The notes under the pieces: generated by a model | Seen by the model: the letters and a program-made list of their open reading frames with translations, nothing else | Told to the model about the DNA's origin: nothing | Database searches by the model: none | Position numbers and translations under genes: made by a program | From: Saprospirales bacterium | GTDB taxonomy: Bacteria; Bacteroidota; Bacteroidia; Chitinophagales; UBA8649 | DNA: 37,816 nt | Assembly (NCBI GenBank): GCA_002708985.1 | Contig: PAPS01000031.1 | Coordinates: forward strand, 1-37,816 | Reading direction: 5' to 3' | Shown here: positions 15,167 to 29,133 of the stretch, in pieces | Numbering within the stretch: position 1 is the stretch's first letter | How the letters are laid out: the number at the start of each line of letters is the position of its first letter

Positions 15167-17740
15167 ATGTCTAATAAGTATATTAAATTTCACGGCATTA
15201 AACTTGCAGACAATTCAGTAATCGAAAGTTTACGAATTGAACAGGTTGCTGCCGATCCCACACCTGCGGCCGCTGGTCGTTTGTGGTATAATACTACTGA
15301 AAAAGTATTTAAGTTCTCTAGTTTAGACGGAAGCGATCAAGTCGTAGTACGTCAAGCGGTATCTCTTCAAGAGATGACATCGGCAATTGCAGTAGAAACA
15401 GCTGCGAGAGTTGCAGATGTTAATGCTGAAGAAACCGCAAGACAAAACGCTGACGCGGCGCTCCAATCTGAATTGGATGCTACACAAACTGGTGCTGGTC
15501 TTGCTGCTGACGGTTCATTAACCCAACACAGCGGAACAAACTATATTGACAGTGCAACAACCCTTAAAGGGACTGACGCATTGTTGGATGCTGCAATTAA
15601 AGCAGTATCAGACGAAATCAACACTAGCCAATCTGGCACAGGGTTGAACACAGACGGTTCATACACCGCTGATGGTTCGTCAAACTTTATTACAACTGCA
15701 ACTTCATTAAAGAATGCTGATTCTTTACTGGACGCACAGATTAAGGTGAATGCTGACGCGATCACTGCTGAGGCAACTTCAAGAGCCTCTGCAGACAGCG
15801 CAAATGCAACTTCTATTGGAAATGTGCAGTCTGAGTTGGATGCAACTCAATCGGGTGCTGGACTTGGTGCCGATGGTGCTTATAGTGCTAACGGTTCTGC
15901 AACATACATCAGTGGTGCATCATCATTAAGTAATGCTGATGATCTTTTAGATTCTGCTGTTGCTGCAGTTCAGTCTGAAGTAGACGCAACACAAGCTGGT
16001 GCTGGTCTTAATGCTGACGGTTCGTATACTGCAAACGGTTCTACGAACTATCTTGCTTCTGCCACATCATTGAAGTCTGCTGACGAAGCTCTTGATGCAC
16101 AAATCAAGTCTGTTGCTGATTCAGTTTCCGGTTCAATTACAACTGGAATTTCTGGATTGCAGTCAGAAGTTGATGCTGTAGAAAACGCAGTAGGTCTTGC
16201 TGCTGATGGTACTTTTGTATCATACAGTGGTACTAACTACCTAGATTCAACAACATCTATGAAGACTGCTGACGAAGCACTAGACAGTGCAATTAAGTCA
16301 GTATCTGATGTTGCTGACGCTGCAGTAGAGAAAGCTGGTGATACAATGGCTGGTACTCTGAACATGAGTAGCAACAGAATCACTAACTTGCCTTCTCCTT
16401 CTGACGATGCGGATGCTGCGACTAAGGGTTATGTAGATGCAACTGCTTCTGGTCTTGATGTTAAGGCATCAGTAAGAGCCACAACAACAGCAAACGTAAA
16501 CCTTTCAAGCGCTCTCGCTAACGGTTCAGTAGTTGACGGTGTTACACTATCAAGTGGTGATAGAGTACTTGTCAAGGATCAAACAGATGCATCTGAAAAC
16601 GGTATCTATGTCGTTCAGGCATCTGGTGCTGCCGTAAGGGCAACAGACTTTGATTCTAATTCTGAAGTCACTTCTGGTGCGTTTACATTTGTCGAAGAAG
16701 GTACTGTCAACGCAAACAACGGTTTCGTTCTTGTAACTGACGGTGCAGTCAATGTAGGTTCTACCAATATGGCGTTTGAACAGTTCTCAGGAGCTGGACA
16801 AATCGAAGCTGGTGCTGGTATCAAGAAGAATGGTAATGAACTGTTCTTATCATTTGGTGCTGGTGTTGTAGAACTACCTTCTGACGAAATCGGTCTAGAC
16901 CTTGCGTCTGATTCTGGTATGATGTTGTCTGTAGATGGATCTACTGCTTCAACAGATACTGCTGCTACGCTGCAGTTGAAGTTGGACGGCAATACTCTTA
17001 CTAAGAACTCAAACGGTGTAAGAGTTGCTACTTCAGTAATTACTGACATCTTGAACCTTCAGTCTGACGCTACTAGTCTCCAATCTGAATTGGATGATAC
17101 TCAAGCAGCTGCTGGCCTGAATACAGATGGTACGTTCGCTGCTCATAGTGGATCAAACTACATTGATAGCGCAACAACAATGAAGGAAGTAGACGCAGCC
17201 CTTGATGCTCAAATCAAGACAGTTGCTGATTCAGTTGCTGGTTCAGTAACATCTGGTATTACTGGTCTACAGACAGAAGTTGATGCCATAGAAACTGCTG
17301 CTGGTCTGAATGCAGATGGTACGTTCTCTGCTCACAGTGGAACAAACTATCTTGACTCTGCGACAACGATGAAGGAAGTAGATGCTGCTCTTGACTCACA
17401 ACTTGAGTCTAAAACATCTGAACTGGACTCTTTGATCTCTGATGTTGAGGGCGACCTCGCAACAGAAACTGCTGCTAGAATTTCTGGTGACAGTGCGATC
17501 AGATCTGCTGTAAACTCTACGAAGTTTACCTTCCAGTCTACATCAACAGCTACGACTCACACAATTTCTCACAACTTGAACTCCAACTTCTTGGTTGTAC
17601 AAGTTATGGTATTGGGTGATGACGGATTGTATGCTAACGATCTCGTACCTGTAGAAGAGACTGACGCAAATACTCTTACTTGTTACCTCACGGAATCAAG
17701 ACACGTTAGAGTATCTGTAATGTCAATGTCAGATATTTAA
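15167..17740 (+). CDS. Long tail-fibre protein with seven shaft repeats (857 aa)
   Basis: ATG at 15167 follows GAGAGG at 15155-15160. The N-terminal 65 residues (HGIKLADNSVIESLRIEQV, AAAGRLWYNTTEKVFKF) form an attachment-type beta module. Five repeats then follow, of the form GLxxDGxxxxxSGxNYxxxATxxKxxDxxLDxxIK, separated by heptad-like Ala-rich helices. Residues about 389-424 carry the widespread fibre motif AGDTMAGTLNM...TNLPSPSDDADAATKGYVD. A conserved beta core follows (LDVKASVRATTTANVNL, RVLVKDQTDASENGIYVV). After about residue 640 come two more repeats, and then a terminal beta cap (THTISHNLNSNFLVV). The design suggests a homotrimeric rod. A terminator follows directly and a late promoter precedes it, so it forms its own unit. 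Host-receptor binding is the expected role, but the tip lacks a recognisable receptor domain. Confidence 0.86.
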   Translation: MSNKYIKFHGIKLADNSVIESLRIEQVAADPTPAAAGRLWYNTTEKVFKFSSLDGSDQVVVRQAVSLQEMTSAIAVETAARVADVNAEETARQNADAALQSELDATQTGAGLAADGSLTQHSGTNYIDSATTLKGTDALLDAAIKAVSDEINTSQSGTGLNTDGSYTADGSSNFITTATSLKNADSLLDAQIKVNADAITAEATSRASADSANATSIGNVQSELDATQSGAGLGADGAYSANGSATYISGASSLSNADDLLDSAVAAVQSEVDATQAGAGLNADGSYTANGSTNYLASATSLKSADEALDAQIKSVADSVSGSITTGISGLQSEVDAVENAVGLAADGTFVSYSGTNYLDSTTSMKTADEALDSAIKSVSDVADAAVEKAGDTMAGTLNMSSNRITNLPSPSDDADAATKGYVDATASGLDVKASVRATTTANVNLSSALANGSVVDGVTLSSGDRVLVKDQTDASENGIYVVQASGAAVRATDFDSNSEVTSGAFTFVEEGTVNANNGFVLVTDGAVNVGSTNMAFEQFSGAGQIEAGAGIKKNGNELFLSFGAGVVELPSDEIGLDLASDSGMMLSVDGSTASTDTAATLQLKLDGNTLTKNSNGVRVATSVITDILNLQSDATSLQSELDDTQAAAGLNTDGTFAAHSGSNYIDSATTMKEVDAALDAQIKTVADSVAGSVTSGITGLQTEVDAIETAAGLNADGTFSAHSGTNYLDSATTMKEVDAALDSQLESKTSELDSLISDVEGDLATETAARISGDSAIRSAVNSTKFTFQSTSTATTHTISHNLNSNFLVVQVMVLGDDGLYANDLVPVEETDANTLTCYLTESRHVRVSVMSMSDI
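15461..17410 (+). repeat. Seven fibre-shaft repeats split 5 + 2 around a conserved core
   Basis: The openings GAGLAADG, GTGLNTDG, GAGLGADG, GAGLNADG, AVGLAADG, AAGLNTDG and AAGLNADG mark the seven units. The first five lie at about 15461-16310 and the last two at about 17080-17410. Spacing varies because Ala-rich helical segments of different length lie between them. Confidence 0.85.
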
Positions 17741-18381: not shown

Positions 18382-19272
18382 ATGGCGGATTCAAATCTAA
18401 GCACTTCGATTGCTGCAGTACTTTCTAGAGGTCAATCACTTATTTCAAGTGCAACCGCATCAGAACTTGCTGACATCACCGAAGCACTTAAAAAAATCAA
18501 AAAGACTGATGATGCAACAGCAGAAACTGCTGTCAACGCAAGAGTAAGTTCGTTGTATTCTACTGCAACGATTGATGAAAAACTCAAATTATCCAGAGCT
18601 GTCGCAAATATGTTGGAAACAAAATTTGTAGACGGTATTCAATTTCCAGATGACACTGGGTTGTCCGATAGAATTCTAAAGACAAATGGTATGTCTACTC
18701 AGTGGGCAAAAGTATCTTTGTCTGATATGAATGCCCTATCCGGAACTCCACAGGCTGGAGATATTCTAGTTTACGATGCTGCTTCAACTGCATTTGTTTC
18801 TACTGCCCCCGATTCGGCGAAGATCCGATACTATGCAGATACCGCGAATCTTCCCACTGATGGAGAGAAGGGCGAAATAGTATTATGTGGATCAGATTTC
18901 AAATTCTATTGTGTAGAAAATGTAACTAGGGGAGTTAGTGCTGCATCTGGTGTCTATATAATGGGAGGGGAAAATAATATCCCGTTAACATTCTATAGAG
19001 GAAGCACATATACTTTCACTCTTGATGGAACTTCGACAATTGGTCATCCATTCTACTTTACTACGGATGATGGAACCTACTACAGTGCGGGCTCTTATTT
19101 CGGAGAATACACAAATGGAGTAACAAACTCTAGAGCGCAATCTGGAAATGTGTCTATCACAGTTCCGATGGATGCTCCCGACTACTTATACTACCAATGT
19201 GGTAATCACTCTGCAATGAGAGGAACTATCTCAGTGTATAGTCCTTGGCTCGCAGTATCGGCTGCAAACTAA
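18382..19272 (+). CDS. Fibre-array paralogue A1 with C-terminal cupredoxin-like domain (296 aa)
   Basis: ATG at 18382 follows AAAGGAG at 18367-18373. Residues 1-80 are the helical module shared by all six proteins of the array (ATASELADITEALKKIKK, KLKLSRAVANML). Residues about 90-140 hold the A-type signature RILKTNGMSTQWAKV then GDILVYDAASTAFV. Residues about 150-175 are a 'LP...GEIVLC..FKFYCV' module. From about residue 193 there is a beta domain resembling a blue-copper protein, with a strand pattern IPLTFYRGSTYTFTLDG, His222 in GHPFYF, and Cys273, His276 and Met279 in YQCGNHSAMRGTI. These are the residue types of a type-1 copper site, although the loop is C-x2-H-x2-M rather than plastocyanin's C-x2-H-x4-M. 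There is no signal peptide. Metal binding is inferred, and the domain may be only structural. Confidence 0.82.
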   Translation: MADSNLSTSIAAVLSRGQSLISSATASELADITEALKKIKKTDDATAETAVNARVSSLYSTATIDEKLKLSRAVANMLETKFVDGIQFPDDTGLSDRILKTNGMSTQWAKVSLSDMNALSGTPQAGDILVYDAASTAFVSTAPDSAKIRYYADTANLPTDGEKGEIVLCGSDFKFYCVENVTRGVSAASGVYIMGGENNIPLTFYRGSTYTFTLDGTSTIGHPFYFTTDDGTYYSAGSYFGEYTNGVTNSRAQSGNVSITVPMDAPDYLYYQCGNHSAMRGTISVYSPWLAVSAAN

Positions 19273-19296: not shown

Positions 19297-19884
19297 ATGT
19301 CATATACAGATAGCGCATTAGACGCAGCAAGACTTACAATGGTTGCTGACATCGAAGCACAAGTCTCTACTGCAAACAAAGACGAACTCTTGAAATATGC
19401 AAGAATGGTCAAGAATCTAAGAGAAACTGATAACGTAACAATCGAAACACTAATCAACTCAAGATTAGAGTCGCTTCTTGCTACAGAAGATGATGTCGAT
19501 ACTCTTTTAGATCTTTCTGACAGTTTGTCAAAGGTACTGGACTTGGTTCAACCTAACACAGAATCAGGAAGAGAACTTCCTACACAATCTGGAAATGGTG
19601 GTAAGTATCTTACAACAGACGGAACAAATGTCTCTTGGGGAACACCAGCACTATCAGATGTTTCTGATTTAACCAGTGTTTCTGACGGCGAAGTTCCAGT
19701 TTATTCTGGTTCTGGATTTACCGGAGAAACCTTAGTAAATAAAACAGTTGCCACGGAGTATAACTCAGTTGCTTCTTTGCCTGCAAGTGCAAGCAATGGA
19801 GACTTTGCATTTACTTTGGACAACAATAACATTTATTATTGGAACGGAAGTGCGTGGACTGCTTTCGGTGGTTTCACTAAATAA
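19297..19884 (+). CDS. Fibre-array paralogue A2, short form without cargo domain (195 aa)
   Basis: ATG at 19297 follows CGGAGA at 19284-19289. The helical N-terminal module (KDELLKYARMVKNLRETDN, then DLSDSLSKVLDL) and the A-type signature (GKYLTTDGTNVSWG, then GEVPVYSGSGF) match the 296- and 1726-residue paralogues. The protein stops right after the shared beta module (SLPASASNGDFAF ... NNIYYWNGSAWTAFGG), exactly where the others continue into cargo domains. The end is clean, with a stop, a 28-nt gap and the next gene's ribosome site, so this looks like a natural minimal form and not a frameshift remnant. It may be a cap, spacer or heterotrimer partner for the longer members. Confidence 0.8.
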   Translation: MSYTDSALDAARLTMVADIEAQVSTANKDELLKYARMVKNLRETDNVTIETLINSRLESLLATEDDVDTLLDLSDSLSKVLDLVQPNTESGRELPTQSGNGGKYLTTDGTNVSWGTPALSDVSDLTSVSDGEVPVYSGSGFTGETLVNKTVATEYNSVASLPASASNGDFAFTLDNNNIYYWNGSAWTAFGGFTK

Positions 19885-19912: not shown

Positions 19913-20452
19913 ATGGCAGATTCAAATTTACAAAACGCAATCGGCGCGATGAAAACAAAAATTCGTGCAGAAGTCGGTGGTGCGGATGTAGATAATGTAT
20001 TAAAGTTGTCTAGGGCTGCAAAGAATACAGGTTTGGATACAGACGGAGAAGTTGAGGGAGATTTCAACATTCGAGCATTGTCTCTATCCACAACTGCTAA
20101 TGCGAGCGAAGTAGACAAGTTAAGTAGAGGAATTAAGAAACTCATCACAAGAGATGTGGACACAGGTGGTGTTTCCATTTCTAGTTCTGATGATGTTCCT
20201 GCTGGTTCTACGAACCAATACTTTTCTCAAGGTGGAGCAAGAGGATTAATTCAATCCAGCGGAGACGTAAGTTATAATTCAGTAACTGGTGAATTTTCTT
20301 TCACTGCCCCAGCAGGTGGATTGACAGTTTATACTAATTCATCAGAATTACCTCTGAGTGGAAATAACGCAGGCGATCAAGCACTCGTTACTTCTACTAA
20401 CAGACTGTACATCTTCACAGGATCAGGATGGTATAGCGTACCAGTATCTTAA
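19913..20452 (+). CDS. Fibre-array paralogue B1, short form without cargo domain (179 aa)
   Basis: ATG at 19913 follows GAGGGATAA. The N-terminal helices (VDNVLKLSRAAKNTGLDTD, EVDKLSRGIKKL) carry two copies of a KLSR motif and align with the other array members. The B-type signature is TNQYFSQGGARGLIQSSGD followed by VSYNSVTGEFSFTAP. The last 45 residues are the shared module (ELPLSGNNAGDQALVTSTN, RLYIFTGSGWYSV), and the stop follows at once. This is the B-type counterpart of the preceding short A2 protein, and the pair sits directly before the giant A3 member. No cargo domain, signal peptide or enzyme motif is present. Confidence 0.8.
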   Translation: MADSNLQNAIGAMKTKIRAEVGGADVDNVLKLSRAAKNTGLDTDGEVEGDFNIRALSLSTTANASEVDKLSRGIKKLITRDVDTGGVSISSSDDVPAGSTNQYFSQGGARGLIQSSGDVSYNSVTGEFSFTAPAGGLTVYTNSSELPLSGNNAGDQALVTSTNRLYIFTGSGWYSVPVS

Positions 20453-20507: not shown

Positions 20508-23500
20508 ATGGCTGACGCACAACTATCAACGTCGATAACATCAATTAGCGAAAGAGCATCAGAGGTCGCACAAACGGCCTCTGCGGATGAGTTACAAAAA
20601 ATATCCAGAGTTGCTCCAAGTCTTGAACAATCAGAAAATGCAGCATTAGAAGTTGCAATCAACACCAGAGCAGCAGCAATTGCTGGAACTGCGTCTGCGT
20701 CTGACTTGAAAAAAATCGGGAAAGCAATTGGAAATATGTTAGAACCACAAACTACTTCTGTATCAGGAGAGTTTATTGGTTCTCAAACTAATCATTCTGG
20801 AAAATTCTTTTCTACGAATGGAACTTCAAAGAACTGGGGTGGAGTCACTGTGGGTGGCCTTCATCAGGTTCAGTTGTCCACAATAGAGAATGATCAGACA
20901 CTTGTATATAATAGTATCAGCGGTAAATTCGAAAACGCTTCAAGAGCATTTAATATTCCGGAATACTCACTAACACAAAATTTACCAGCATCTGGAACAA
21001 CTGGAGAGGTTGTATTTGATGTGCAAGCATCATGTCTAAAATACTGGGACGGATCCGAATGGAAAGTTGCAGCGGTTGTTGCGGCAGCAGGAGGCGGAGG
21101 AGCTGCTTCTGTAGATTGGTCTGGAAGTGTATTTGCCGATAATTTTCATTCAATTACTGGTATCAACGCAAATCCTACTCCAGCGGTATGTGGAAATATT
21201 ATTGTTGCCAGAGATGGTTATACTGATAATTTCTATGCATATGACAGAGATAGTGGCGCACAACAATGGTCTATACCTCAAGACGGTACTATGAGTAGTA
21301 ATATGGGTGGTAGTGATACTATTTTTGTTATAGGTAAATCTTCCAACTGGGCCACAGCCGGTGTTACAGTTTATAATCCGACAGACGGATCTTTATATGG
21401 CACATTATTAGATCATCAAGGAAATAATTTTCCCGGCGATAATATCAAAGTCTATGGAAATACAGTACTTTCACACAGTCAAACAGGTACTGCTACTGGA
21501 GACGCTGGTGTTGCTAAGTTATTTAATATTACAAGTTTAGATCCTTTTCAATATACTTCTGTTGATCTACAATATCCATTTAATCCAAACGGAGTCCAGT
21601 ATGGAATTGACGCTGCACTGGGAGAGACTGTTGCTGCAGTAAGTACTTATACTGGCGGTGGCCTTGATGAAATAATGTTATTTGATCATGCCGGAACTAA
21701 TCTATTCCGAGTAACGGCCCCAGAAAGAAATAGTGGCGGAGAAAGTTGGGGAAGAGCAGAACAATATGCCCATGCTGGTGCGGTGACAATTGTCGGAACA
21801 AATTTGTATGTCGGAGATTGCAAATATGGAGGCAGTGATAACGGTAAACTTTACAAATACGATATCACAGATCCAAGTAATCCTAGTTTAACTACATCAT
21901 TCGAACCTAGCGATTTCGGGTTGACACAGGCTAATAAATTTGCAAAGACAGTTGTTTCTGCTGGAAAATATTTGTCGGTTGGATATATGTCAACTGCTCA
22001 CAGCACTGCAAATTTGGCATTTCTTTTGATCGATACTGACACAGATACCGTAGTGCAGTCAATTGATGGATCATCAAATTCTTATGGAAATCAAGGTCAT
22101 AGATTTATATCAATGGGAGATGACGGTACTAATGCAACTATTGCCATCTCTGCATATAATGATGGAGGTCTTTTAATTTGGAGAAACAACAGCGGATTTA
22201 GTTCGGCATCCAGTGGTTCTGGAGAAAGTTCTGAAAGCGGAGAAAGTTCTTCATCAGTACCAAGTCTAAGACTTGTGGCGAGCTCGCCGAGGGATGATAA
22301 TGATAATGGAGATCAAGCAGGTGCTGTATATCTTTTCAACACAGATGGATCTAACGAAGTTAAGATTACCGCAAGTGATGGTGAAACTTGGGATGTATTT
22401 GGCAGTTCAGTTGCGGCCGGACATGGTAAGATTGCGGTAGGTGCATATGGAGATGATGATCAAGGTAATGGCGCTGGAGCAGTCTATGTTTATGACTCAG
22501 ATGGATCTAACGAAGTTAAGATTACCGCAAGTGATGCTGTAGCAAACGACCAGTTCGGTGATAAAGGCCTGGCAATTGGAGAAAATAAAATAGTAGTAGG
22601 AGCGCCAGCCGAAGAAGATGATGGTCAAGTAAATTACTATAACGCCGGAGCGATCTATGTTTATAATTTAGATGGAACTGGTGAAGTTAAGATGACTGCA
22701 AGTGATGGAGCTCAGAATGATAATTTCGGCAGAGGAGTTGCGATTGGTGGGGGCAAAGTTGTAGGAGGAGCTTCTAATAACGATAGTAAAGGCGCAATAT
22801 ACATATATGACCTAGACGGAACCAATGAAACTAAAGTAACTTCATCAAATCTCAACCAATATGCACAATTCGGATATGCAGTCGCCATCGGAGAAAATAA
22901 AATAGCAGTAGGTGCATATAACGAAAATGAGGGAGATGTGTCGGGATATCAAACATCTGGTGCAATGTTCCTCTATGACATGGACGGATCAAACGAAATT
23001 AAAATAATGCCATCTGATAGGGCAGAATATGATGCATTCGGCCGGAGTGTCGCAATTGGAAACGGAAAGGTCGCAGTCGGCGCAAGAGGGCCAACTAGTG
23101 CTAGTGATGTTCCAAAATCAAATAGTCCGAATGGATCGGTATATGTTTATAATTTAGATGGAACTGGTGAAGTTAAGATTACTGCAAGTGACGGCGCAGC
23201 AAACGATGGATTCGGTTCTTCTGTCACAATAATGAATAGTAAGATTTTAGTTGGGGCCCCCATGAATTATTCTGGAGGAAACGGCGCAATCTATATGTAT
23301 GACTTAGATGGATCTAACGAAGTTAAGATTACTGCAAGTGATGGTGTTGTCGGTGATTACTTCGGCGATGCAACTGCAATCTCAGAGGGATCAAGTGCAT
23401 CCAGTGGTTCTGGAGAAAGTTCTAGTTCGCCCACATCGTCAATACAGTTCGATGGTTCGGATGATTACTTAACCGTAGATTTCCAATCAACTGTCATTTC

Positions 23501-25688
23501 TTCCAATGAAGAGTTTACTGCAGAATTTTGGATTTCCCCAAATGATCTTGCTAACTATTATGGCAACGGATTATTGAACTTTACAAATAATTTGGGAACA
23601 TATGAAAAGTTATTGTATATTTCTAGCACAGGAAATGTCTCTTTGTACGATAGCACTAGGCCCAGCAACAAAGATATTACAGCCAACTCCGGAGGCGGTC
23701 TTACTGTAGATGGGTGGCACCATATTGCATTGACTAGACAATCTGATAATTACATTAGAATTTATATTGATGGCCAATTAATAAATACATCGTCTAGTCA
23801 GTGGGATGTGGAATTACCAAGATATCTTGAAATAGGAAGGGTTAGTTCCACTACTGGATATTTTGATGGAGAGATTGCAGATTTGCGTATCGTTAAGGGC
23901 ACATCGGTCTACAATGCAAACTTCACTCCGACAACATCGCCACTAGGAGATGTTGCAGGAACATCACTACTAATATCTAGCAGTAACACCACAGATATCG
24001 TTGATGCGTCTTCGTTTAATCGAACTATAACTGCATCCGGCAGTCCTACTGTTGTTACAGAAACCCCATATACAACATCCGGTGGTTCTAGTTCATCCAC
24101 ACCAGTAGATTGGAGTCCGCTCACAATAAGTACTACTGTTGCTAGTAGTGTTTACAATTTGACAGATACCGATCCGATTAATCCGAATCCAAATTTTGAT
24201 ACGGATTCTGACTGGTATAAAGATAGAGAAAATTTAGGAACTTCTTTCTGGACAATCTCTGGCGGCCAGGCAGTTATGTCAACTACCAGTGATTATAGAC
24301 CACTATATCAACGCAATATCGGTATGCAAGTTGGAGAAACATACACCGCGACAATAGTCGTAAGTGCGGTAACTGGATCTATGAAATGGGATTTGGTAGG
24401 AGATAACGGAAATGGAATATATGGTGATGGATTGGATGCGAATGGATCTGGGTATGGAAGAATAATTGAATCCCCAGGCACATATACATTTAACTTCACA
24501 TATACTGGAACACAAAGAAATGGAGTTGCGGTTGACGGAATCGGGATTGCTCGGAGATTAGAATCTTCTTGTACCGTTGACAGTATGTCTGTTAAACTCT
24601 CTGGTTCTGGTGGAACTACAGGCGAATCAGATCTTGCAGTAGATATGACAGAAACATACACTGTTATTGGAATCGATAAGGCATACAGTGGATATGGTGT
24701 TATTAAACTTATAGGAAACGCATCAGCGGGCGTTACTCATTGGACTGTAAACAATCCCAATCCAGTAACAGCAGGAAGCTTCGGAAGAAGAAACTCTGTC
24801 GGTATAGACGGCACTCATGTTGTTGCTGGTAACAGAGATCAAGATGAAGTATACGTCTACGATATGTCGGGAACACTTTTAAGAACTATCAGCGGCCCAG
24901 ACGCAGGAGCGCAGTTCGGTCATTCTGTTAAGATTGATGGAGACTATATCGCAGTCGGTGGATACAATCAAGACAAGGCATATATCTGTTCTACATCAAC
25001 AGGTGCGATTTTGCACACACTGACAAATCCAAATGTATACGGATCTACACCAGACCAATTCGGTCAGGTAGTTGATATTTCTGGAAACTACATGGTAGTT
25101 TCTACTGTAGAAGAAGATGCTGCGGATGGAAGCAACTCAGGTGTTGCATATGTATATGCTGTAGATTCCGGCAGTTTACTTCATACATTTGTCAATCCAA
25201 ATGCACACGGAACAAGTGCTTTAGATAATTTTGGAATTGACTGTGCGATTGATGGAGACTATCTCGTAGTGGGTGCTTTCGGGGAATCTGACGCTGCTGT
25301 GGGGTCTGGTTCTGGTAAGGCGTACTTCTACAATGTCGCGACAGGAACACTCTTACACACGATTGACAACCCAAATCCGGACAGTGGAACTGATGTAGAT
25401 TACATGGGTTGGTCAGTTGCTGTTGATGGTCAAACTGCGTTGGTCAGTGCATGGTATGAGACAGGAACTGCTGGCGCTGATGCTGGTAAGTGTTATCTCT
25501 ATGACATAGTATCAGGAAGTTTATTACATACTATCGAAGATCCAGACTTATATTCTGCAAGTGGAACTGATGACAGATTCGGATCAGAAGTTGCTTTATG
25601 CGAAAACTATTTTGCAGTCTCCGCGAAAGGAGAGGATCATGCAAACCAAAATAATGTCGGCGCAATCTATGTATTCAAAGGAGAATAA
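20508..25688 (+). CDS. Fibre-array paralogue A3: FG-GAP propeller, LamG, jelly roll and further propellers (1726 aa)
   Basis: ATG at 20508 follows AAGGGAG at 20494-20500. Residues 1-190 are the shared N-terminal module with the A-type signature (GKFFSTNGTSKNWGGV). After a Gly linker (about 193-200) come: a first propeller-like region, 202-564; a Ser/Gly/Glu linker; seven FG-GAP repeats, about 586-961, each with GAxYxYxxDGSNEVKITASD then FG...KIAVGA; a second Ser linker; a LamG/concanavalin-like domain, about 978-1159 (FDGSDDYLTVDF, DGWHHIALTRQSDNYIRIYI, YFDGEIADLRIVKG); a Ser linker; a jelly roll resembling a carbohydrate-binding module, about 1225-1370; and a final propeller, about 1374-1726 (KAYFYNVATGTLLHTI). 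All these folds bind glycans or proteins in other systems. A receptor-binding or decoration role is therefore likely, but inferred. The next gene starts 4 nt after the stop. Confidence 0.85.
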   Translation: MADAQLSTSITSISERASEVAQTASADELQKISRVAPSLEQSENAALEVAINTRAAAIAGTASASDLKKIGKAIGNMLEPQTTSVSGEFIGSQTNHSGKFFSTNGTSKNWGGVTVGGLHQVQLSTIENDQTLVYNSISGKFENASRAFNIPEYSLTQNLPASGTTGEVVFDVQASCLKYWDGSEWKVAAVVAAAGGGGAASVDWSGSVFADNFHSITGINANPTPAVCGNIIVARDGYTDNFYAYDRDSGAQQWSIPQDGTMSSNMGGSDTIFVIGKSSNWATAGVTVYNPTDGSLYGTLLDHQGNNFPGDNIKVYGNTVLSHSQTGTATGDAGVAKLFNITSLDPFQYTSVDLQYPFNPNGVQYGIDAALGETVAAVSTYTGGGLDEIMLFDHAGTNLFRVTAPERNSGGESWGRAEQYAHAGAVTIVGTNLYVGDCKYGGSDNGKLYKYDITDPSNPSLTTSFEPSDFGLTQANKFAKTVVSAGKYLSVGYMSTAHSTANLAFLLIDTDTDTVVQSIDGSSNSYGNQGHRFISMGDDGTNATIAISAYNDGGLLIWRNNSGFSSASSGSGESSESGESSSSVPSLRLVASSPRDDNDNGDQAGAVYLFNTDGSNEVKITASDGETWDVFGSSVAAGHGKIAVGAYGDDDQGNGAGAVYVYDSDGSNEVKITASDAVANDQFGDKGLAIGENKIVVGAPAEEDDGQVNYYNAGAIYVYNLDGTGEVKMTASDGAQNDNFGRGVAIGGGKVVGGASNNDSKGAIYIYDLDGTNETKVTSSNLNQYAQFGYAVAIGENKIAVGAYNENEGDVSGYQTSGAMFLYDMDGSNEIKIMPSDRAEYDAFGRSVAIGNGKVAVGARGPTSASDVPKSNSPNGSVYVYNLDGTGEVKITASDGAANDGFGSSVTIMNSKILVGAPMNYSGGNGAIYMYDLDGSNEVKITASDGVVGDYFGDATAISEGSSASSGSGESSSSPTSSIQFDGSDDYLTVDFQSTVISSNEEFTAEFWISPNDLANYYGNGLLNFTNNLGTYEKLLYISSTGNVSLYDSTRPSNKDITANSGGGLTVDGWHHIALTRQSDNYIRIYIDGQLINTSSSQWDVELPRYLEIGRVSSTTGYFDGEIADLRIVKGTSVYNANFTPTTSPLGDVAGTSLLISSSNTTDIVDASSFNRTITASGSPTVVTETPYTTSGGSSSSTPVDWSPLTISTTVASSVYNLTDTDPINPNPNFDTDSDWYKDRENLGTSFWTISGGQAVMSTTSDYRPLYQRNIGMQVGETYTATIVVSAVTGSMKWDLVGDNGNGIYGDGLDANGSGYGRIIESPGTYTFNFTYTGTQRNGVAVDGIGIARRLESSCTVDSMSVKLSGSGGTTGESDLAVDMTETYTVIGIDKAYSGYGVIKLIGNASAGVTHWTVNNPNPVTAGSFGRRNSVGIDGTHVVAGNRDQDEVYVYDMSGTLLRTISGPDAGAQFGHSVKIDGDYIAVGGYNQDKAYICSTSTGAILHTLTNPNVYGSTPDQFGQVVDISGNYMVVSTVEEDAADGSNSGVAYVYAVDSGSLLHTFVNPNAHGTSALDNFGIDCAIDGDYLVVGAFGESDAAVGSGSGKAYFYNVATGTLLHTIDNPNPDSGTDVDYMGWSVAVDGQTALVSAWYETGTAGADAGKCYLYDIVSGSLLHTIEDPDLYSASGTDDRFGSEVALCENYFAVSAKGEDHANQNNVGAIYVFKGE
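22316..23390 (+). repeat. Seven FG-GAP blade repeats with near-identical DNA
   Basis: Each unit codes for GA(V/I)Y(V/L)YxxDG(S/T)xE(V/I)K followed by an FG and a VAIG...VGA strand. Copies at 22342-22380 and 22498-22536 share 39 identical bases. Copies beginning at 22656 and 23142 share about 38, and a copy at 23306 differs from the first by one base over a similar length. Seven units is the number of blades in a closed integrin-type propeller. Confidence 0.88.
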
Positions 25689-25692
25689 TTAA

Positions 25693-27771
25693 ATGGCTAA
25701 TACGTTTACCGCAAGAGATACACTTAAGACAAAACTACTCGCAGCATTAGGTAGTGCTACCAGTGCAGATCAGATTGTTAAGTTATCTAGAACAATAGAA
25801 AAGGCAAATCTAGACGATGATGCGGATCTAGAAACTGCGTTGGATACAAAGGTATCTGCAATGGCGGATAGTGCTTCTACTGAAGATATTGAGAAACTTG
25901 CATTCGGTGTCAAAAAATTGAGAACTTCGGCTACCGCGACAGATCCAGTTTCCAGTATGATCCCAGAAGGTTCTAGTAATCTCTATGTAACTGACTCAAG
26001 AGTCAGAGGTTCATTCAGTGCATCTGGAGACTTATCTTATGATTCCGGAACTGGAGTCTTATCTTATACCGCACTACCAGATGCATTAACAGTTTATGCG
26101 ACAGTTGGGGATTTGCCCTTACCAGAAAATACTAATGTTGGTGCAAAGGGAATAGTTGAAGAGAATAAGAAACTTTATATTAACTCAGGATCTTCTTGGC
26201 TCAATGTAGGCCTTGTAGATCAGAAACCAAGTTTTACAACAACACCAGACGGTTCATATACATTGAGCCCAGGCGCAGATACAGTTATTACTCTCAATGC
26301 AACAGATCCTCAAGGAGATCCTATCACATTTTCTCATGTGGTATCTGCAGGATCTTTAGGTGGTTCTACAGTATCACAATCTGGTAATGTTTTCACGATC
26401 ACAGGAAGTTCTGATAGTAATGATACTGCTCCTTTCTCAATAACATTTAGAGCAAGTGACGGAACAAATATCACAGATGCAACTTCAGAATTCACAGTTG
26501 GTTTTGCAATAGATTGGTCTGCGTTTTCTTCTTGGAATACAACACATATAGTAAATCCAAATCCCGGCTACTCTACTTGGACAGACGATAATGACGGGAA
26601 CAAATTTGGTCGTACCGTGGCAATATCAGAAAATTATTTTGTTGTTAGTTCGGAAGAATGGTTTTCGCCAGGTTATCGTGGAGGAAAGCACTATCTCTAT
26701 GATATGTCAGGAACATTGTTGCATACGTTAGACTTTGGCGCAGCAAATTATTTTACATCAAATAATGGAAATATAACAAATGGTGAACGTAAATGTTTAA
26801 TACATGAAGGAAAAGGAATAGTCGTTGTAACCAGCAACCGGAAAAATGGTGGTAACAATCAGACTGTTTTAGATATCTATAGCATATCCACTGGTAATTT
26901 ATTGACAAGCTGGTTTGGTCTCAATTCCGTAACTGGAGGTAGAGCTGGAGATAGTATTATTATGACCGAAGACGGGAATACTCTTCTTTGGTCATCATAT
27001 GCTTTAAATTGGAGTAGTTCAACTTCTGGAGGGGCATATAAAGTAGATATGACCGACCCATCAAATCCAGTTCTAGGTAGTTTTATTTCTGGTAATGGTA
27101 AGTTTTCTGGTAGAAACATGGCAGTTAAAAATAATTGGTTGTTATATAGTGCTGATGGAACTTCTGGTCAAGCAGGACTCACTGAACCAGGCAGAGCAAA
27201 CCTATATAATTTATCAACACAATCAACATATCAAATTGATCCGCCAGTTCAGGCTCACTATGGAAATTTTGGTCTTTGTGTAGCCATTACCGATACTCAC
27301 TTATTAATATCTTCGCCAGGGAATGCAGGAACAGATAATGTTTGGGTTTTTGATTTCGATTCGACTGACGATAATGCTTCCGCTCCTACTGTCAAAGGTA
27401 AAATTTCTGGCGGGAATCACTTGCCCGGATACACAAATAATTTTGGCCAAGGAATAGAAGTTGGTGATGGCGCATTTTTTGTAACATCTAATGCAAACGA
27501 CGATACCATATGGTCTTATTCTTTCGACGCACTACCAACTGGTGGAACTGCAAACAGCGATCTTTCGGCAGCATACTTATCATCTTTGACAATATCAAAT
27601 CCAAATACTGATGGAGGTGATACTATTGATAGATTTGCATCCAATGGAAATGGGTCTTCTCGACATAACTTTGCGGTACACGGAACTAAAATAGTTGCTG
27701 GAGCATGGAGTGCTCAAGAGAGTGGGTATAACGGAAGCGGTGCAGCATACTTATTTACTGCAACAACTTAA
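25693..27771 (+). CDS. Fibre-array paralogue B2 with Ig-like domain and propeller (692 aa)
   Basis: ATG at 25693 uses AAAGGAG (25677-25683) at the end of the previous gene, so the two are co-translated. Residues 1-135 are the shared helical module with the B-type signature (SNLYVTDSRVRGSFSASGD, then LSYDSGTGVLSYTA). Residues 135-176 are the LP...LYINSGSSWLNV module. Residues about 177-272 are a cadherin/Ig-like domain of the kind common in marine phages (VITLNATDPQGDPITFSHVV). Residues about 274-692 are a propeller-like region related to the end of the 1726-residue protein, sharing VNPNPG, FGRTVAISENYFVV and LYDMSGTLLHTL. No enzyme motif or signal peptide is present. The likely role is a receptor-binding or decoration fibre, by domain type. 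Confidence 0.82.
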   Translation: MANTFTARDTLKTKLLAALGSATSADQIVKLSRTIEKANLDDDADLETALDTKVSAMADSASTEDIEKLAFGVKKLRTSATATDPVSSMIPEGSSNLYVTDSRVRGSFSASGDLSYDSGTGVLSYTALPDALTVYATVGDLPLPENTNVGAKGIVEENKKLYINSGSSWLNVGLVDQKPSFTTTPDGSYTLSPGADTVITLNATDPQGDPITFSHVVSAGSLGGSTVSQSGNVFTITGSSDSNDTAPFSITFRASDGTNITDATSEFTVGFAIDWSAFSSWNTTHIVNPNPGYSTWTDDNDGNKFGRTVAISENYFVVSSEEWFSPGYRGGKHYLYDMSGTLLHTLDFGAANYFTSNNGNITNGERKCLIHEGKGIVVVTSNRKNGGNNQTVLDIYSISTGNLLTSWFGLNSVTGGRAGDSIIMTEDGNTLLWSSYALNWSSSTSGGAYKVDMTDPSNPVLGSFISGNGKFSGRNMAVKNNWLLYSADGTSGQAGLTEPGRANLYNLSTQSTYQIDPPVQAHYGNFGLCVAITDTHLLISSPGNAGTDNVWVFDFDSTDDNASAPTVKGKISGGNHLPGYTNNFGQGIEVGDGAFFVTSNANDDTIWSYSFDALPTGGTANSDLSAAYLSSLTISNPNTDGGDTIDRFASNGNGSSRHNFAVHGTKIVAGAWSAQESGYNGSGAAYLFTATT

Positions 27772-27789: not shown

Positions 27790-29133
27790 ATGCCAAATAC
27801 TAATTTAGAAAACTCAAAGATCAACATGAAGACTCGTATTAGAAATCGAGTCCAAGCTGGTCAGACACCAAGAGATCTAGGAAGACTTGCAAAGTCCGCT
27901 AGATTTGTGGGACTCACAGATGACGCAGAAGTAGAAACTGATATTGATACTCAGATGGCTGCTGCGATTCCTACTGCATCTATAGATGATCTAGTAGAAA
28001 TGTCTGAAGGTCTTGCAGAGTTGAGATCTGGCGCGGCGGATATGGGTAGAGTCAGTAATACAGATAACTTAACAGAAGGTGGAAATAAGTTTCTTAAGGC
28101 AGCAAATGTTCAACCGGCAATAAGTGTCTCTGGAGACTTGTCTTATGATAATGGTGTGGTTTCATACACCGCTCCTACTGCGGCTGCACTTCAAGTTGTC
28201 GCAACAGTCGGAGATCTTCCTACTGGTGCAAGTCCCGGCGATCAAGCAGTAGTTCAATCTAATAATAATTTGTATATTAGAACTGCAGACGGTTGGTATG
28301 CAACTGCGTTGATTAATACTGCTCCTAGTATATCGGGGAATGATGCGTCATATGAACTTGCGACAGATGGAACTCCTACAGTCATCACAATGACCGCAAC
28401 GGATCCAGAAAATGATCCAGTAACATTTTCATATGCAGTTTCTAGCGGATCTTTAGACGGAACTACAGTCGAACAAAACGACAATGTTTTCACTGTTACA
28501 CCACACGCATCCAATCCAGCAACATTTTCTCTTACATTCTCTGCGGATGATTCTGTGAATGTTGCAACAAGTTCCTCTGATTTTTCTCTTAATTTTGCTC
28601 CAGATTTTTCTGGTCATTCTTTGGAGTCTGGGCCCTATGGCTCTTACTATCAATGGGGCGGACTACCACTTGGTTCTTTTGATGAATATGATGCAATGGA
28701 TCACACCCAACAAATGAACTCAGGCCAACTTATCAAAGTGCAAGTAAACTCTCCCCGAATTAATTCTGGAGTAATAATAAACTTAGGGACGACTGCGACA
28801 TTAAAGGGGTTTGTCAGTAATGGCACATCTACAGGATTTGGATCCGGAGGGGGTGCTTACCCATTTGGCGGTAATAATAGGACATCAGTTTTTAATGTAG
28901 ATACCAATCAGTGGGAAGTTATTGATAACAAGAATAAAAATCAAAGAAAATATGGTGCTCCAAGTCTTATTACTGCTAATCAGTCTCCGTATGATACCGT
29001 CAATCAAGATCCGAATTGGCAGTATGGAGAAGCAGGAGTAAGAATTAATAAAATTAAAGTTGAAGCAAACGGGCCCGGGCCAAGTCCTTGGAGCTCAGGA
29101 TCTTCGCCAAGAGGAATATTTCTAATATTCTAA
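27790..29133 (+). CDS. Fibre-array paralogue B3 with Ig-like domain and unique C-terminus (447 aa)
   Basis: ATG at 27790 follows TAGGAAAC just after the previous stop. Residues 1-130 are the shared helical module (LGRLAKSARFVGLTDDAEVE), with the B-type end AISVSGDLSYDNGVVSYTAP. The module DLPTGASPGDQAVVQSNNN, LYIRTADGWYATAL follows. Residues about 176-269 are a cadherin/Ig-like domain (VITMTATDPENDPVTFSYAV) closely similar to that of the preceding paralogue. Residues 270-447 are unlike the others: Gly/Ser/Asn/Pro-rich, with TGFGSGGGAYPFGGNNR and an ending INKIKVEANGPGPSPW. This tail may be a distinct tip domain. It is the last member of the array and the unknown 339-residue gene follows. Confidence 0.8.
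   Translation: MPNTNLENSKINMKTRIRNRVQAGQTPRDLGRLAKSARFVGLTDDAEVETDIDTQMAAAIPTASIDDLVEMSEGLAELRSGAADMGRVSNTDNLTEGGNKFLKAANVQPAISVSGDLSYDNGVVSYTAPTAAALQVVATVGDLPTGASPGDQAVVQSNNNLYIRTADGWYATALINTAPSISGNDASYELATDGTPTVITMTATDPENDPVTFSYAVSSGSLDGTTVEQNDNVFTVTPHASNPATFSLTFSADDSVNVATSSSDFSLNFAPDFSGHSLESGPYGSYYQWGGLPLGSFDEYDAMDHTQQMNSGQLIKVQVNSPRINSGVIINLGTTATLKGFVSNGTSTGFGSGGGAYPFGGNNRTSVFNVDTNQWEVIDNKNKNQRKYGAPSLITANQSPYDTVNQDPNWQYGEAGVRINKIKVEANGPGPSPWSSGSSPRGIFLIF

Follow-up and report, generated by a model that had tools for sequence, protein, structure and literature searches.

A closed integrin-like propeller as a probable exchangeable binding cassette in an adhesin of a T4-like marine phage

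In this study we describe a seven-blade FG-GAP propeller with an integrin-like fold that probably acts, at a likelihood we put at about 0.7, as an exchangeable binding cassette in a phage adhesin. The propeller is encoded on a 37.8-kb contig, which is called the window below, and it forms the central part of a 1726-aa ORF that we name gene A (20508..25688; it and all parts of the fibre cluster given below lie on the forward strand). The product of gene A would be an adhesin built like beads on a string, with an anchor, a PQQ-like segment, the FG-GAP propeller, a laminin-G domain, a beta-rich insert and a C-terminal FG-GAP propeller. Between the constant ends, cassettes would swap among related T4-like marine phages and also among neighbouring fibre genes. 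The junctions would lie in Ser/Gly/Glu linkers that are conserved at the DNA level, and the exchange would most likely proceed by phage homologous recombination. A swapped propeller that binds by its 2-3 loops would then change attachment.

Fold of the propeller cassette and its calcium motifs

The cassette at 22263..23390 corresponds exactly to residues 586-961 of gene A. It holds seven FG dipeptides, at residues 631, 683, 740, 788, 844, 902 and 952 (blade starts at 22398, 22554, 22725, 22869, 23037, 23211 and 23361, within 22398..23390), and seven GAxYxY-type strands, at residues 605, 657, 714, 762, 818, 876 and 926. This position count, with its regular spacing, agrees with the exactly seven units reported in the initial annotation, which was made from the sequence alone. 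The HMM match to the FG-GAP family that had been proposed as a check was found with Pfam FG-GAP_2 (PF14312), which matches the gene A ORF with E=2.1e-98 and a score of 322.8 bits (cut-off 23). The match comprises 12 FG-GAP_2 stretches, which make up the cassette propeller and the C-terminal propeller. The Pfam family FG-GAP (PF01839) gave no match to the gene A ORF at E<=1, and a weak one (E=0.13) to a homologue in another viral contig (L015).

We modelled residues 586-961 with AlphaFold2, using an alignment of 29 homologous modules as input. The model reached a mean pLDDT of 89.9 and a pTM of 0.91, and shows 28 strands in the order 3 + 6x4 + 1. The three N-terminal strands and the last strand therefore form one blade, by which the ring is closed. 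In this 3+1 velcro blade the last FG strand completes the ring together with aa 587-620. The structure prediction that had been suggested as a second check thus returned a closed seven-blade ring, and the blade number remains seven with the boundaries examined: the first strand lies at ~587-593 and the last at ~956-960. On both sides the cassette is bounded by the Ser/Gly/Glu linkers that had been described, linker 1 at aa 562-584 (22191..22259) and linker 2 at aa 956-978 (23373..23441). Among the six full blades the mean identity is 51%. In the relatives a blade HMM counts 7 or 8 blades; we take both counts to mean seven, as the closing blade may be counted twice, once for each half, and the spans are mostly 340-370 aa.

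When the model was compared with the PDB by Foldseek, the best 50 matches listed were all integrin alpha heads (E 3e-15 to 4e-12), with query TM-scores of 0.64-0.70 and identities of 15-19%. A sequence profile of the modules also found an integrin, alpha-E, as its best PDB match, at a weak E=0.0023, and a single-sequence comparison with PDB chains gave nothing useful. Because of the Foldseek and profile matches, together with matches to viral models, we regard the integrin-like fold as real and note that phage examples of it are already in the databases. That the cassette folds as a closed seven-blade integrin-like propeller is close to certain, and the model and the PDB fold matches support its earlier description as a complete and self-contained unit. 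Residues 586-961 are an autonomous propeller that belongs to the FG-GAP_2 family, folds much like an integrin alpha head and lacks integrin-type calcium sites.

The calcium question deserves separate treatment, as the D-x-D-G turns of the cassette had been proposed to bind this ion. In integrins the calcium motif DxDxDG is located in the 1-2 loop, which connects strands 1 and 2, and is joined by a glycine of the 3-4 loop (PMC3192720); calcium-binding blades of integrins are also the subject of PMC3123361. In our model the 1-2 loops are HG, EN, GG, EN, NG and NS, two residues each, and D-x-D-G forms a six-residue 3-4 turn that hardly varies. DxDxDG was present in none of the 29 modules searched, that is the target and 28 homologues. 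Neither a strict nor a relaxed Cage motif matched in the cassette, in a pattern run made without an integrin positive control, and FG..P..G patterns occur at three places. Calcium binding through D-x-D-G is rejected on the wrong loop position, the missing DxDxDG and the missing Cage motif.

These observations also bear on the idea that the cassette is a true integrin-type head, which binds its ligand in a calcium-dependent manner. The integrin alpha heads among the best PDB matches listed, the seven blades and the D-x-D-G turns all speak for such a head, but it appears very improbable given that D-x-D-G occupies the loop where integrins give just a glycine (PMC3192720), that the 1-2 loops are two-residue turns without DxDxDG both here and in the homologues, and that PF14312 was matched rather than PF01839 and no strict Cage motif was found. 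Of the "integrin-type ligand-binding head" in the initial annotation, the fold with its seven four-stranded blades stood, and the calcium sites did not. The cassette is integrin-like in fold, but by its motifs it is not an integrin-type propeller. The FG-GAP name naturally invites the assumption of such calcium sites, and their exclusion shows this assumption to be wrong here.

A phage contig and its fibre cluster

The window is a whole contig, and the same contig is present in IMG/VR. It encodes a T4-like terminase, a sheath and a tube, in line with the phage origin assumed for it from the start, and with cyanophage and pelagiphage proteins its terminase shares at most ~57% identity. The contig is part of a Bacteroidota bin, and several large FG-GAP_2 repeat proteins of surface type belong to this bin itself, on contigs C43, C8 and C33 of its genome G000 (L098, L099 and L100, respectively). 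One could thus take gene A for a bacterial surface adhesin that belongs to this bin, instead of a phage fibre. We consider this extremely unlikely, since the terminase, sheath and tube genes lie on the same contig, the anchor of gene A is common to five neighbours, orthologues are found in phage contigs of up to 200 kb, and the tested phage gene was not found in 20 genomes related to the bin, with one chance match of 25 bases. A search for 16S in the bin for host assignment found none, and a T4 gp23 query had no match in the bin, where the control was equally silent. The placement of a phage contig in a Bacteroidota bin may reflect infection or an artefact. Elsewhere in the window, an 857-aa ORF (15167-17740) contains repeated LQSELDATQ..GL..DG units. 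Its orthologues have 857, 857, 1011 and 1033 aa, and these differences suggest a change in repeat copy number.

Gene A belongs to a group of six adjacent ORFs, beginning at 18382, 19297, 19913, 20508, 25693 and 27790, that have an N-terminal domain of ~185 residues in common. Two of the six consist of little beyond this domain. These headless anchors, of 195 aa (19297..19884) and 179 aa (19913..20452), are 92-97% conserved among orthologous contigs, and the first of them has a weak match to a PHROGs fibre family; gene A itself had no PHROGs match at E<=1e-3. Gene B (25693..27771) combines the anchor with a Big_9 constant part (aa 1-278) and a variable head with FG-GAP_2 similarity, and gene C (27790..29133) combines it with an Ig-like constant part (aa 1-277) and a variable head. 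In both genes the first ~277 residues are constant and the heads change between related phages. The remaining paralogue, at 18382..19272, carries a cupredoxin-like tail behind its anchor. The tail has no Pfam match, and its histidine and C-x2-H-x2-M motif (HPFYF...YYQCGNHSAMRG) are suggestive of a type-1 copper site.

As far as sequence can tell, six ORFs with a common anchor make the pattern of a fibre cluster. Gene A also combines a conserved N-terminal anchor-type domain with variable modules, as expected of a tail fibre. We infer that its product is a fibre which the N-terminal domain would attach to the virion.

Several parts of gene A had been overlooked initially, namely the PQQ/BamB-like segment before residue 575, the laminin-G domain, the 27-bp repeats discussed below and a second seven-unit FG-GAP_2 propeller at the C-terminus. 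The conserved anchor (aa 1-192, 20508..21083) is followed by the PQQ_2/BamB-like cassette (aa ~200-562, 21105..22193), whose match lies below the Pfam cut-off and which we regard as a putative propeller on this sub-threshold similarity. Behind the FG-GAP propeller and linker 2 comes a laminin-G or concanavalin-like lectin cassette (aa ~973-1194, 23424..24089), and linker 3 (aa 1188-1199, 24069..24104) forms the junction to the constant C-terminal part. Close to where the C-terminal propeller begins sits the beta-rich insert (aa ~1217-1368, 24156..24611), with the junction motif GTTGESDL retained. This insert has no Pfam match, and by eye, in a low-confidence model, it may resemble a carbohydrate-binding module. 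The gene ends with the constant seven-blade FG-GAP_2 propeller (aa 1369-1726, 24612..25685). A model of aa 1195-1726 had a mean pLDDT of 64.7 and is usable for the C-terminal blades only.

Constant ends, a changing middle and linker repeats

Orthologues of gene A were found in five further viral contigs (L011-L015). These five and the window are exactly the viral contigs, six in all, that contain a 21-bp sequence from the junction at which the constant C-terminal part begins. Compared with the window, the orthologues show 90-92% DNA identity over the first ~575 bases and 84-87% amino-acid identity in the C-terminal propeller, and their middle parts vary in content, length and order. The six genomes hold only five distinct middles. 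The window has the order PQQ-like cassette, FG-GAP propeller, lectin and beta-rich insert. L011 lacks the PQQ-like cassette and has FG-GAP, a different lectin and the insert, which is absent from L012-L015. L012 has a different propeller-like segment, then a lectin and FG-GAP; L013 has solely FG-GAP-type repeats, and L014 and L015 have two FG-GAP arrays each. Behind the fibre cluster, the next gene is 99% identical over its covered part, and therefore the whole-module differences are local; the small genes before the cluster are 91-97% identical. We are highly confident that gene A varies by cassettes between constant ends.

The clearest case of re-ordering is the lectin cassette. It is 94.5% identical in DNA between the window and L012, for which the constant ends are 90.7% and 85.6% identical, and both of its ends lie in linkers. 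In the window it stands behind the FG-GAP propeller and in L012 before it. Similar modules are found beyond gene A as well. FG-GAP cassettes ~50% identical to that of the window form the gene B head of L015 and also occur in fibre genes of two further contigs (L020 and L021), and gene B of L012 has a head related to the PQQ-like cassette of the window. A pattern scan with a single sequence, either the FG-GAP module or the N-terminal cassette, returned the window itself as the only close relative.

The linkers mark the module junctions. A perfect 27-bp direct repeat (GCATCCAGTGGTTCTGGAGAAAGTTCT), which encodes ASSGSGESS, flanks the FG-GAP cassette with one copy in linker 1 (22206..22232) and an identical one in linker 2 (23397..23423). 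By chance none would be expected in the window, where these two copies are found. The same 27 bases are present in linkers of L011 and L012, and among 2.9 million viral contigs the 23-bp core of the repeat was found in just three, the window, L011 and L012. With the codon usage of the window, the probability of independently choosing identical codons for ASSGSGESS is ~3e-5, and for this reason we regard the linkers as DNA-level copies of each other. Homologous recombination at the linkers would be the simplest mechanism suggested by these sequences, and we consider linker-mediated exchange somewhat more probable than simple inheritance, by which the shared linker DNA could also have arisen without being a recombination site. 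A stronger and rather doubtful version is that the repeats are standing recombination junctions, at which whole propeller and lectin heads are inserted, lost and re-ordered within gene A and among three adjacent fibre genes. If true, such an array of linker junctions would change attachment specificity as diversity-generating retroelements do, but by a non-mutational route.

Binding role and closest known systems

The variable surface of the propeller is formed by its 2-3 loops. They have the highest column entropy (2.04 bits) and a variable length, of a few up to 17 residues. A value of 1.00 bits was obtained for the 3-4 turns, whose length is almost fixed at six residues, and the 1-2 turns reach 1.98 bits, yet are just two residues long. 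Integrins meet their binding partners with the face made up of the 2-3 and 4-1 loops. Binding by the face of the 2-3 loops is a natural guess, because these loops are variable and the same face meets partners in integrins, but high-entropy loops can equally mean relaxed constraint. Most likely the propeller uses these variable loops to bind a ligand on the host surface. Ligand binding is a plausible role because the propeller is an interchangeable block between conserved ends and its variation is concentrated in these loops, and on balance we find it probable. The recognition of a surface protein or a glycan, as had been suggested at first, would fit such a role.

The same features have to be weighed against a purely structural role, in which the propeller is a spacer or stability module, recognition falls to the lectin or the C-terminal propeller, and the middle shows neutral variation in length. 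Many phage fibres vary at the C-terminus, which makes the constant C-terminal propeller unusual. This propeller is presumably distal, and receptor contact might be made by it or by other genes instead. Propellers and lectin-like modules in series could act as spacers, and repetitive blades with a mean identity of 51% can readily be amplified or lost. Length variation alone, however, does not account for a middle that changes by replacement and re-ordering of whole modules, nor for variation that is concentrated in one loop class, and in genes B and C, too, modules of the same kind are exchanged, which resembles the diversification of heads. We therefore hold the spacer reading to be unlikely, and an exchangeable adhesin head is the most likely identity of the propeller.

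To our knowledge, the host receptors of most marine T4-like phages have not been identified. Interchangeable blocks between constant ends indicate how such phages might switch their attachment target, and they offer a testable model in which attachment specificity could change more rapidly than the remaining genome. Self-contained, foldable heads with known boundaries are also ready units for expression and ligand screening.

Among known systems, the integrin alpha-subunit beta-propeller shares fold and blade number with the cassette, which differs from it by the lack of DxDxDG loops and of a strict Cage motif and by the low identity given above. Bacterial integrin-type propellers have seven FG-GAP repeats, at times with two propellers in tandem, and carry the calcium motif in 7/7 blades (PMC3192720), whereas the cassette has it in none. 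The closest viral relative in fold is a protein of cyanophage S-TIM5 (H6WG31, AEZ65754.1, 407 aa), a seven-blade FG-GAP propeller annotated as a virion structural protein, which is the best viral fold match with a TM-score of 0.90 and 46% identity. It is a stand-alone protein of ~407 aa encoded beside thyX, unlike the propeller of the window, which is a cassette inside a multi-domain fibre. In Synechococcus phage ACG-2014c (S-MbCM6 group) an FG-GAP_2 stretch 40.6% identical to ours is part of a very large T4-like structural protein (AIX22631.1, ~7,000 aa), in which the same anchor, linkers and cassette exchange are not evident. Vibrio phage nt-1 likewise has FG-GAP repeats in a T4-like phage (AGN30308.1), but in a stand-alone protein of ~400 aa and ~32% identity that is encoded away from the fibre genes, unlike gene A. 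Among the papers searched, none joins FG-GAP, phage and tail fiber. For Alteromonas phages, recombination is described as a means by which host-recognition modules come to be shared (PMC10579305). There a fibre and its chaperone are shared across phage families, whereas in gene A internal cassettes change between constant ends. FG-GAP propellers in phages are thus already annotated, and the new part is the cassette array.
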